Shown one piece after another: positions 38,711 to 42,823 of a stretch of DNA of 56,373 bases. The stretch covers positions 202,973 through 259,345 of the forward strand of contig CASEFL010000001.1 of NCBI GenBank assembly GCA_949287245.1. The letters run 5' to 3'. Position 1 is the stretch's first letter. The number at the start of each line of letters is the position of its first letter. The position numbers and the translations under genes are program-made. The DNA comes from an uncultured Bacillota bacterium (lineage in GTDB: Bacteria > Bacillota_I > Bacilli_A > RFN20 > CAG-826). The notes under the pieces were generated by a model. It made no database searches and was not told the origin of the DNA. It saw nothing but the letters and a program-made list of their open reading frames with translations.

Positions 38711-41700
38711 TTAAAACTTATCAGATAAAGGTTCCCATTGAGTCCAATCAAATGGAATTTTTTGATACTCATACATCGGTTTAGCGTATTTCTTTAACCA
38801 ATAATTCACTTTTTCATAGGAAATTAATCCCATACCAATGAATGTTTTAAAGTATTGGAAATTTAATACTTTAAAGAGATATCCATGAATAACAGAAGAA
38901 AGTTCATCTTCTTTATAAACACCATACTTTTCTACTTTGGACGCAAAATCTTCTACGTCTATTTTTAACCCCGTTTCAAAAGAGGAATACTTAAAATCAT
39001 CAAACATTCCTTCAATATCATCAGGAATGGTTAATAAGTCATCGGTTGCACAATTAATGTTATATTCGGAAACTGGAGATACTTTAATTGTTTTTTCTTG
39101 TTTTACTTTTACATCCACAAGAACAACCTTTTTAAGAGTGAAAGTACCTTCCACTTTTTTTACAGCCACAAACTCTTCGCCAAGATGATCCATAAATTCA
39201 TCGCCATAATAAATTTCGTATCGATGGCGATTTAAATTAAACAAACCATGTCCACTTGCAATGGTAAGAATTGACCCGTCATTAAAGGTTAAAGTAACAA
39301 TGTCAAATAGTTGTTCCTCAAAAACAACATTTGCTAAAATCTTCTGTGCTTCAAAACAACCTTTAGTGTGATTATAAGTTAATAAAGAATCTCCTTGTTT
39401 TAAATCTTTGGCTAATTTGACGGAACCATCGGCCATTGTAATTTTTGTGTTGGGGAGTAAACAAGAACTCCGTTTGTGATTAATAACAAATTGCGCTTCC
39501 ACAACATTAGTAGAATCTAGACCTACAACTTTGACATTTAGATGGGGTTCGTCATCGCCGGAGCCAGTATTACCACCAAACGTAACGGTAACGGAATCTA
39601 TTCCGGAAACAATTTCTGGATCCGATGTGTTATTTTTATCTATCCATTGCCTATCTGTAGCAGTTTTATCTAAAGACCATGTAATTTGAGAATAGACAGC
39701 ATCACTAGGATAAATCTCAATAGAAAAAATCACAGCATCCCCACTTTCATACTGAGCATGGTAATCTTTAGTATAGGGGTTACCTTCTATAAAATTATCG
39801 TCCTTAAAGTCGTTTCCAGCTACAACATCAGATCGATGTCCCTGGTTATCAACAATAACAACTTTTTCAATTTCTTTAACTTCTTGCTCTTCTAGCACCT
39901 CAGTTTTATAAACCGCGGTAACTCCGCCAATCGATGCAGTAATTTCAACTTCTCCAAAAGAAACGCCTGTTACAACTCCTGATTGATTAATTGTGGCTAC
40001 CTCAGGATTGCTACTTTCCCAAACAATAGTTTTGTCATAAGCCTTCTCCGCATCAATAACGTCGGCAACTAATGAAATGTTTTTTCCAACATATAAAGGA
40101 TCTTTACCATCTGGCAAAGTAGGGCTTAATGACCGGATAGATAAACTTTGTATCTCAAACTCATTTATCCCATTATTGTCGGAACTAATAGACATTGCTG
40201 ATGGTATTGAACATACAGAATTCGTTCCTGATGAATTGTAACTAATAATTGAATCTTTTTGATATCTTGTCGAATTGCTTATGAAATTTGAAATGTTTGA
40301 TAAAAACTCTATCGAATAGTTTTCTGGGCTATCTAAAAATATAACACCTTGATTCTTATTAAACGAAAAAACATTCTCAGAATCTGTAATGATATTAAAA
40401 GCGGGAAAATATTGCGTAGTATCGTCTTTATAAAAGTTGTTAATACCAACATATATCTTTGGTCTATGGTAGTCCGTTAAAGGACGAATATCTAAAGTCT
40501 CATATAGTTCCAAATACGTGTTAATTATGGTAACAGGTATAGGAATTAATGAGGGATTATTAACATTTTTCCAAGCTTCATTTGCACAAATAGAGGTATT
40601 CCCTTCAACAGTAATGTTTTCCTCGTTGCCGTAAACTACCCCTGCTAAATTATTAACAGTCAAAAAACCACCTTCTTGAACAATGAACTCTGCTCCAGGT
40701 TTTCGTGGATAAGCTTTTGCGCTATAAGCACAGTTACCAATAAAACTCGCACTACCGAGACTTCCATCGTAAAAAGCACTATAAACCACAATATCTAAGG
40801 CGTTTAGCTGAACATTTGAACCAACTTCTAAATAAGAACCAGGCAAAAATTTCATCCGCTGCTTTGATAAATTGTATACGACGTTTTCTGAAGGACTTGT
40901 CTCGGATTTAGAAGATAACAAATGAATCCTTTGATGATAAGAAACTGGGAAAAATGCGTTTTTAGTAGATAAGTTTACTTCCCTGTTAATGCCTTCAAAG
41001 ACAACACTAAAAGTCATTTCTAAATTATTTAGAGTAACGCCGCCATAAAAATATAAATCCGCTACATCAGAAGAAGGATCATAATAATAGTCCAATGAGG
41101 ATGTATTTGAATTAAATTGAATTAATGCGTCATTGGAAGACGCAAGTATTTTCATTGTTTTTGGAGATGTTCCTTGATATGCGTTTCGATAATCAATATA
41201 AAGATTAATCACGCCATATACAGTCGAATCATAATTAAATTCTGAGAAAACACTAATGTTTTGGAGTTCAAACTGATTAAAAGGAGAACATCTTTTATCA
41301 TCAATTGCTCCATCCGTCATTGCCCACGAGAAGTCAATCCCACGGAAATCATTAACGACAAAAGGAACATAAATATTTCCTTTTTTGAATTGACAAGAAG
41401 AGTTGTTATTTTTTGAAGATTCAGAAATAAAACCAAAACAATAGGTTTCTGGTGTGTATTCCGTACTATTTGTGTCTTGAACAATTTTTGCTCCTTCTTC
41501 TAAAAGAATTTCAGAGTAACTATGTGAAGTTTGACCCATAGAGCAAACATTTGAAGTGCCACCAGATAAATTACCAGAAACAACAAGAGTGCCTTGATTT
41601 GTTAAAGTTACCTCCTTTTTAATGGTTAAAGTAACTCTTAGCCATCTTGAGGGATTATTCTTAGCAAAAGCAGCATATGTGGTAGCATTTCCTTTTGTGT

Positions 41701-42136
41701 GATCGTCTTCCCTCATCGAATTAATATAAGTTGATAAAGAAGAGGCGTCATTAACGCTTGCAACAGAATCTTCATCCGTTGGTAGCACAAGAGAAACACC
41801 AGGTTTTATCGTACAGTCTTCTGTAATCTCATAAGAAACTTTATCGGGATTATTGGGATTGTTTGTTGGGTGGTAATTTGGAAGTTTTGGCGGAATTAAA
41901 ACAACAATATCTCCACTTTTAGCCATTCTTAAAGCCGATTCAATCTTTACAAATGGATTAGCCTCTTGCCCAACAATATAAGCTTTCGGTGTAACGTCGG
42001 TTGCTTCAGGATAGGCATAATTAACATCAATTGATGATGAAAGAAACCAACTTGAAAAACCAATTGTGGTTAAAAAAGCCGCGCCTGATAACAAAAAGAT
42101 ATAGGAAATCTTACTTGAGGTTTTCTCCTTTTTCAT
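38711..42136 (-). CDS. Large exported surface protein with Ig-like domain and C-terminal Hint self-processing domain
   Basis: The 1141 residues start with an export segment (about 10-34, ending in GFSSWFLSSS). A large beta-rich region follows, then a BIG_2 Ig-like domain (about 700-780, with SSNPEVATINQSGVVTG). A Hint (hedgehog/intein) domain starts at Cys892 (SSCLLPNTKITMADGS). Its second motif is LTIASGHGLF with His963, and the last block is EYNINCATDDLL (about 1024-1035). No His-Asn end follows, so cleavage rather than splicing is expected. About 100 further residues end the protein. It overlaps the upstream small gene by ATGA; GGAGG precedes the ATG. Confidence 0.8.
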   Translation of the reverse strand: MKKEKTSSKISYIFLLSGAAFLTTIGFSSWFLSSSIDVNYAYPEATDVTPKAYIVGQEANPFVKIESALRMAKSGDIVVLIPPKLPNYHPTNNPNNPDKVSYEITEDCTIKPGVSLVLPTDEDSVASVNDASSLSTYINSMREDDHTKGNATTYAAFAKNNPSRWLRVTLTIKKEVTLTNQGTLVVSGNLSGGTSNVCSMGQTSHSYSEILLEEGAKIVQDTNSTEYTPETYCFGFISESSKNNNSSCQFKKGNIYVPFVVNDFRGIDFSWAMTDGAIDDKRCSPFNQFELQNISVFSEFNYDSTVYGVINLYIDYRNAYQGTSPKTMKILASSNDALIQFNSNTSSLDYYYDPSSDVADLYFYGGVTLNNLEMTFSVVFEGINREVNLSTKNAFFPVSYHQRIHLLSSKSETSPSENVVYNLSKQRMKFLPGSYLEVGSNVQLNALDIVVYSAFYDGSLGSASFIGNCAYSAKAYPRKPGAEFIVQEGGFLTVNNLAGVVYGNEENITVEGNTSICANEAWKNVNNPSLIPIPVTIINTYLELYETLDIRPLTDYHRPKIYVGINNFYKDDTTQYFPAFNIITDSENVFSFNKNQGVIFLDSPENYSIEFLSNISNFISNSTRYQKDSIISYNSSGTNSVCSIPSAMSISSDNNGINEFEIQSLSIRSLSPTLPDGKDPLYVGKNISLVADVIDAEKAYDKTIVWESSNPEVATINQSGVVTGVSFGEVEITASIGGVTAVYKTEVLEEQEVKEIEKVVIVDNQGHRSDVVAGNDFKDDNFIEGNPYTKDYHAQYESGDAVIFSIEIYPSDAVYSQITWSLDKTATDRQWIDKNNTSDPEIVSGIDSVTVTFGGNTGSGDDEPHLNVKVVGLDSTNVVEAQFVINHKRSSCLLPNTKITMADGSVKLAKDLKQGDSLLTYNHTKGCFEAQKILANVVFEEQLFDIVTLTFNDGSILTIASGHGLFNLNRHRYEIYYGDEFMDHLGEEFVAVKKVEGTFTLKKVVLVDVKVKQEKTIKVSPVSEYNINCATDDLLTIPDDIEGMFDDFKYSSFETGLKIDVEDFASKVEKYGVYKEDELSSVIHGYLFKVLNFQYFKTFIGMGLISYEKVNYWLKKYAKPMYEYQKIPFDWTQWEPLSDKF

Positions 42137-42787
42137 GAGATTACCTCCAAGCGATAAGAAAAACCGCTATCTCCTTTACTCAATGGAACATATACTAAAT
42201 TTTCGAAGTCACTAGCAGCAGAACTAAAATCAATTTGAATCAATAGAGAACAATAAACATATATATTTGGAAGAGAAGAGAAGGAATACTGAATACTTGT
42301 AGCATATTTCCCTTCAAAGTTGAGAGTTAAAGCTACTTTGTTACTTGGATTATTTGTATATCCTTGAGTGGAGAATTGAAAAAATAGTTGTGGATTGCTT
42401 CCCAAATAAGATTCGTTAAAAAGATTAAAGGATCCGTAATTTGAAAAACTTAGTAAAAACGTAATTTCCGAATCATCAGTGTAAATAGAAGCCCCTTGAT
42501 CAGAGGGATTAAAATAAAAACCGAAACTTAATTCACCCTCATAAACAATTTGATCATTTTCATTAATAATGCCATCTTTTGAATACGAAAAGTTTGCTAA
42601 ATTCTCACGAGGATGAATCCATTCTGCCGTGATAACATCGCCGACAGACAAATCAAACAAATCATGTTTTAAAGAATGATCAACAAGATAAGAAGAAAAC
42701 GCAACACCAATTAAACTAACAGAAAGAAGAAGAGTTGATAAACTCCCCCCCCCAAAGAATTCCTTTACGATACTGATGTCTTCTCAC
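42133..42787 (-). CDS. Small exported protein interrupted by a G9 tract (putative phase-variable gene)
   Basis: Read as found, only 42133-42660 is open, from a TTG, giving 175 residues without an export signal. Upstream, the same frame continues through a hydrophobic stretch up to nine G residues (42745-42753). With eight Gs, a GTG at 42787 joins the frame. The product is then 217 residues with a basic start (RRHQYRK) and a membrane/signal segment ending in AFSSYLV, like the export segment of the next gene. The mature part is beta-rich and unrecognised. The next gene overlaps the stop. The GTG has no Shine-Dalgarno; TAAAAT ends 7 bases before it. Confidence 0.7.
42745..42753 (-). repeat. G9 homopolymer tract (C9 on the plus strand)
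   Basis: Nine identical bases stand in the coding part of an AT-rich gene. Such tracts mutate by slippage. The tract separates the start codon and signal segment from the rest of the reading frame. Confidence 0.9.
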
Positions 42788-42794
42788 GGGCGTG

Positions 42795-42823
42795 ATTTTA
42801 TCTTACTTTCTTTCACTGAGCAA
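42795..42823 (-). promoter_or_regulatory. Promoter of the small exported protein and Hint operon
   Basis: TTGCTC (42818-42823) and TAAAAT (42795-42800) are spaced by 17 bases. The -10 ends 7 bases before the GTG at 42787, so the transcript would begin at or next to the start codon. Confidence 0.4.

Follow-up and report, generated by a model that had tools for sequence, protein, structure and literature searches.

In the 56,373-nucleotide stretch analysed here (the window), which derives from an uncultured Bacillota bacterium (contig CASEFL010000001.1, positions 202,973 to 259,345), a tract of nine G residues (G9) interrupts the signal-peptide segment of a gene for a small exported protein, directly upstream of a gene for a 1141-amino-acid (aa) exported protein with a C-terminal Hint domain. 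Based on its reading frames and on comparison with related genomes, this tract probably represents a slippage-driven translational phase-variation switch, i.e. a simple-sequence contingency switch, of the two-gene surface operon, a reading to which we assign a probability of about 0.83.

Translation of the locus bore out what a sequence-only reading had described, i.e. a nine-G tract that splits a signal-bearing gene, a stop after 23 codons with nine Gs as opposed to 217 residues with eight, and an ATGA overlap with the Hint-domain gene. The tract begins 34 bases into the gene, counted from the first base of its GTG start codon, and with nine Gs the small gene encodes VRRHQYRKGILWGGEFINSSSFC followed by a stop, 23 codons from position 42787. 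With eight Gs in the tract, the frame extends to position 42133, and its 217-aa product opens with a basic start and a hydrophobic stretch (SLSTLLLSVSLIGVAF). The start codon is GTG rather than ATG, and the nearest alternative start past the tract is a TTG at position 42660. A change of a single base in the tract joins or breaks the frame, and the tract is placed in the 5' part of the frame, in both of which respects the locus corresponds to a contingency locus, its mutability being an expectation. Judged from its frame, the locus as assembled is OFF.

Tracts at the same place were observed in relatives (genomes, contigs and loci are given by G, C and L handles). A set selected on the tract itself comprised 86 runs of at least eight Gs (G≥8) from 37 genomes of the genus; in a subset of these, the run is located roughly 10–20 codons into a small exported-protein gene that is followed by a large exported gene. 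Eight-G tracts were out of frame in G024, G023:C31, G030:C50 and G034:C40 and in frame in G029, whose orthologue in G031 carries an in-frame G9; a further out-of-frame tract, in G033:C12, is eleven Gs long. The G9 tracts of G030:C6 and G034:C58 belong to orthologues in opposite states, the former out of frame and the latter, with different flanks, in frame.

As the bias of a tract-based selection had to be removed, homologous operons were gathered across 224 family genomes via the Hint protein alone and a three-sequence Hint profile; a query with the single Hint protein over genome contigs gave no match, and an alignment query retrieved four relatives. A G≥8 tract at the same signal-peptide place was present in 14 of the 41 homologous operons with a visible small upstream gene (both counts were made by hand). 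Nine of the 14 come from the genus; the remaining five, from four further genera, are in frame in G072 (G10) and out of frame in G137 (G8), G087 (G9), G088 (G10) and G051 (G8), which brings the total to five genera. Three of these 14 unselected tracts are in frame, which fits the one third expected of a free-running tract (p 0.41) rather than a fixed coding run; under coding constraint nearly all would be expected in frame. Moreover, 202,903 bp of further family loci, fetched via the Hint gene alone, contained five G≥8 runs on either strand, all five of which (5/5) lie at the signal-peptide spot (about 2e-12 under random placement). In two operons a single base interrupts the tract, which is in frame (GGGGTGGGG in G023:C29 and GGGGGAGGG in G075), and these interrupted runs look like locked forms of the switch. 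Tract-free operons carry mixed glycine codons at the site, such as GGAGGA, or none. A rule-based scan for signal-peptide-like tracts (13/86 on the G strand vs 2 on the C strand) overlooked a number of genuine cases and admitted two doubtful ones, and was dropped as a count in favour of the homology-based one. A search of viral contigs for copies from the same species yielded none.

The suggestion of a phase-variable switch, made in the sequence-only reading together with the remark that a constant length among relatives would speak against it, thus found support in the comparison: tracts of G8, G9, G10 and G11 share the site, the majority of them out of frame and the rest in frame. This diversity speaks against a frame that is fixed throughout, and also against an assembly error confined to one locus. 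An error of assembly or sequencing, with a true run of eight and a gene that is always on, is accordingly judged improbable. The G9 is known from one metagenome-assembled genome (MAG), and homopolymer lengths are error-prone, but 11 of the 14 unselected tracts, from different assemblies, are out of frame, and an error at each of them is unlikely; a wrong length for this one tract would still leave a long run at a conserved position. Contig names in three related records are of the SPAdes, MEGAHIT and IDBA types, i.e. assemblers mostly used for short reads, and a shared long-read homopolymer artefact is therefore not likely.

With regard to chance, a first-order Markov model predicted 0.07 runs of G≥9 in the window and 1.5 in the genome. 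The window contains, counting both strands, 22 runs of five Gs, no run of six and a single run each of seven and nine, the real run-length spectrum falling more steeply than the model. The 1.117-Mb genome harbours three G≥8 runs, all within signal-peptide segments: the small-gene tract, an in-frame run in a lipoprotein gene at C4, and an in-frame G9 in a second exported two-gene operon (L126, G000:C6, tract at 58895), which has a TGATG overlap and a different downstream protein. The position of the tract is non-random, and the number of tracts proves nothing. It is highly improbable that the runs merely reflect GGG codons occurring by chance in glycine-rich signal peptides, with no selection for mutability. 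Gly-Gly(-Gly) does recur ahead of the hydrophobic core, and chance of this kind may explain the tract in the lipoprotein gene at G000:C4; however, GGG accounts for 19% of Gly codons, tract-free operons use the mixed codons mentioned above, and a run kept purely for its codons should be in frame in every operon, as opposed to the 3/14 observed.

The open frame downstream of the tract was further assessed in relatives by the ratio of nonsynonymous to synonymous substitution rates (dN/dS), which amounted to 0.30 for an orthologous pair with one out-of-frame and one in-frame allele, 0.19 for an out-of-frame/locked pair, 0.30 for a pair with both alleles in frame and 0.22 for a tract-free control pair. 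These sequence-based estimates show purifying selection on the open frame in orthologous pairs that include an out-of-frame allele. A pseudogene, i.e. an operon inactivated and decaying in this strain, would account for a gene that ends after 23 codons as sequenced, but this is very unlikely in view of the 203 codons that are open past the tract, the dN/dS of 0.19–0.30 in orthologous pairs of relatives, and a sole lesion that is a run recurring in relatives. Long homopolymers can cause slippage of RNA polymerase or the ribosome, and programmed slippage of this kind would produce full-length protein at any DNA length, the run setting a ratio rather than an on/off state. Such a mechanism fits the purifying selection seen in pairs with an out-of-frame allele, yet it is considered an improbable explanation, as programmed sites have a constant length and a single frame relation, whereas lengths of 8–11 and all frame relations were observed here, in addition to interrupted in-frame forms.

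Several points weigh against a phase-variable switch. About two thirds of the operons are without a G≥8 tract, and the switch is therefore not essential to the system. The comparison covers one genome per species, length variation within a population being a prediction, and the MAG consensus of G9 may be off by one. The G≥8 runs of the genome that contains the window are fewer than the Markov model predicts, and a genome-wide excess of G runs was dropped as an argument for that reason. Finally, further damage is present in a few tract-bearing genes (G030:C6:17524, G033:C30 and the end of G034:C40), and some of these damaged alleles may be decaying. In the small gene of G033:C30 (L148), an in-frame TGA occurs where Trp would fit (GWAS*LIYGE), and one TGA lies within the Hint-gene match of G033:C31 (L028), representing either a pseudogene or an unusual reading; a Trp meaning of TGA in G033 was considered and set aside, as the small genes there finish in the ATGA overlap.

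The credibility of slippage is increased by the mismatch-repair complement of the genus. Neither MutS1 nor MutL was matched above the curated cut-off in any of the 37 genus genomes (0 of 37 for each), where controls including Bacillus subtilis and Escherichia coli gave matches for both; MutS-type matches in the genus fall on the C-terminal ATPase region of proteins about 775 aa long, the pattern expected of MutS2. Mismatch repair thus appears to be absent from the genus to which the window belongs.

Under the proposed switch, replication slippage (slipped-strand mispairing) would alter the G run by one base. At joining lengths, the GTG-started n-region would be connected to the hydrophobic core to give an exported protein of the SipW type, about 217 aa long, and at non-joining lengths translation would end after 23 codons. 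In the OFF state, the shared transcript would carry an untranslated stretch of about 600 bases upstream of the Big_2/Hint gene, and Hint output would probably be lowered by polarity and by lost translational coupling, for which pilus clusters of Bifidobacterium breve offer an analogue. With the stop/start overlap kept in most relatives, an effect of the tract on the Hint gene is plausible, polarity being likelier than complete loss of the Hint protein because the Hint gene keeps its own ribosome-binding site (GGAGGT, six bases 5' of its ATG). A change in expression and a benefit to the cell would presumably follow. A side observation is that the G run and the following GAGTTTATCAACTC (42724–42753, minus strand) form a terminator-like hairpin, which might add to polarity when untranslated.

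Features of the operon are listed in Table 1. The promoter-like pair TTGCTC/TAAAAT matches the consensus at 8/12 positions, under the threshold of the promoter scanner, and a TATAAT-like hexamer 6–8 bases from the start was also found in the operons of G023, G024, G030, G033, G034, G051 and G137. Since the -10-like hexamer is close to the GTG and its spacing is similar in several relatives, the mRNA of the small gene is likely to be leaderless.

Table 1. Features of the two-gene operon, in window coordinates
Feature	Position	Strand	Remarks
Weak -35-like hexamer TTGCTC	42818..42823	-	Sequence read; 17 bases from the -10
-10-like hexamer TAAAAT	42795..42800	-	7 bases before the GTG
Small exported-protein gene	42133..42787	-	GTG start at 42785-42787; out of frame as sequenced
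G9 tract, proposed switch	42745..42753	-	C9 on the + strand; between basic n-region and hydrophobic core of the signal peptide
Post-tract open frame, 203 aa	42136..42744	-	Hydrophobic core, GFSS(W/F/Y)-like cleavage region, exported domain
Shine-Dalgarno GGAGGT of the Hint gene	42143..42148	-	Inside the 3' end of the small gene
ATGA stop/start overlap	42133..42136	-	Exact overlap of small-gene stop and Hint-gene ATG; kept in most relatives
1141-aa exported protein	38711..42136	-	Signal segment, Big_2 (aa 683-736), C-terminal Hint domain
Hint domain, about aa 891-1040	39017..39466	-	Cys892 at its start

Searches of Pfam, NCBIfam and PDB sequences yielded no match for the small protein, a Glyoxal_oxid_N match in Pfam (E 0.14) being regarded as noise, and the TasA/camelysin profile (Peptidase_M73) showed no match at E≤1 among 16 members of the small-protein group, nor by NCBIfam. 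An AlphaFold model of the protein was too poor for fold comparison (predicted local distance difference test (pLDDT) of 37). Its N-terminus looks like that of SipW-type substrates, and a SipW-like signal peptidase is encoded at G000:C4:72744 (TIGR02228, 68.2 bits; cut-off 51.85). The downstream protein belongs to the Hint superfamily by profile, fold and N-terminal Cys: its C-terminal domain matched profiles of 6tmm (3e-5) and 1at0 (1e-4), i.e. a bacterial-intein-like (BIL) domain and hedgehog, and Pfam Hint was matched in its relatives. The domain model (pLDDT 87) has inteins, BIL and hedgehog Hint domains as best folds (E about 1e-9 to 1e-8), and both Cys892 and the His of an HG[LIV]F-like motif are conserved in five aligned members. 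Neither protein contains an LPXTG-like motif. The export of both proteins and the overlap of their frames suggest a joint function.

Poly-G runs in the genus are also located in promoter-like spacers. Such a location, with 8–10 Gs between -35-like TTGxxx and -10-like TAxxxT hexamers, applies to 14 of the 86 genus runs, compared with 1.4 when the flanks were shuffled and 1 for the complementary strand, and is represented in G035:C1 (L112, L114, L116, L119, L121), G029:C1 (L104, L105), G022 (L093, L097), G031:C2 (L137), G036 (L123, L124) and G033:C12 (L144). Spacer tracts precede similar exported small proteins at G036:C7, G035:C1:647717, G031:C2:413857, G022:C95 and G033:C12:36528. These runs are likely to be transcriptional switches and, as a second switch type, suggest a genus-wide poly-G phasome. 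A broader synthesis, which we hold tentatively and at somewhat less than even odds as a whole, is that a mismatch-repair-deficient family operates a poly-G phasome of exported surface proteins with two interchangeable tract positions (the signal peptide and the -35/-10 spacer), that loss of MutSL would make short G8–G10 runs fast enough to serve as switches and leaderless transcripts would tie the switch tightly to translation, and that turning the small partner on or off would render processing or display of the Hint protein phase-variable.

Other poly-G loci were noted in the same genomes. A recurrent element, G8(G9)TGAAAT, often after AAAA, is present outside obvious genes (L088, L094, L106, L130, L135 and L142, in G022, G029 and G031), and two copies have long flanking sequence in common. 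A C5-DNA-methyltransferase-like gene with an ENV motif carries an in-frame G8 or G9 at the same place in two species (L106, G029:C1:261950; L089, G022:C10:6126) and is a possible phase-variable methylase. A run just 5' of a gene for a product of about 725–740 aa, with TPIADxFxxPCL and FxALFGFFSS-like motifs at its N-terminus, was found in three species (L105, G029:C1:233565; L139, G031:C3:56065; L103, G026:C6:49133); this is a possible phase-variable defence gene.

What makes these observations significant is that, in several genera of uncultured gut Bacilli, the tract returns at exactly one position, alongside absent MutS1 and MutL. G-run lengths at these loci are predicted to be mixed within single hosts, and such mixtures would report surface variation of commensals under immune or phage pressure. 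For annotation, the small genes appear broken in most assemblies and probably are not. Slippage-driven surface switching is best known from pathogens and Bifidobacterium, and no earlier account of it in this lineage seems to exist. The presumed mechanism is of a known kind; a limited literature search turned up neither the locus family nor the lineage, nor the pairing with a surface protein of the Hint type.

With respect to its proteins, the locus resembles TasA/camelysin and SipW of Bacilli in the basic n-region, the long hydrophobic core, the G(F/V)(S/A)S(W/F/Y) region and a SipW-like peptidase gene, but differs in a small protein that has no sequence match in the databases searched. The C-terminal domain of the 1141-aa protein is similar, by profile and fold, to hedgehog, inteins and bacterial intein-like domains; unlike in known Hint proteins, it is located at the C-terminal end of an exported surface protein and carries an extra helical tail, any splicing or cleavage activity being putative. 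In Neisseria, pilC contains an intragenic poly-G tract of 9–20 residues that turns a surface function on or off depending on frame (PMC5953494). The window locus shares with pilC and other genes of the Neisseria poly-G phasome an intragenic tract and frame-dependent surface switching, whereas the proteins and envelope type differ, PilC being a pilus-associated protein of a diderm. In the sortase-pilus clusters of B. breve UCC2003, the G-tracts of bbr_0113 and bbr_1889 undergo replication slippage, with polarity reported on later cluster genes (PMC9187656). As in that gut commensal, a G run lies between an open reading frame bearing a Sec signal and the remainder of a surface gene; in contrast to the B. 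breve pili, the window locus lacks LPXTG and pilin, its partner is a Big_2/Hint protein and its phylum is unrelated, and tracts of its type recur in five genera at one signal-peptide spot.
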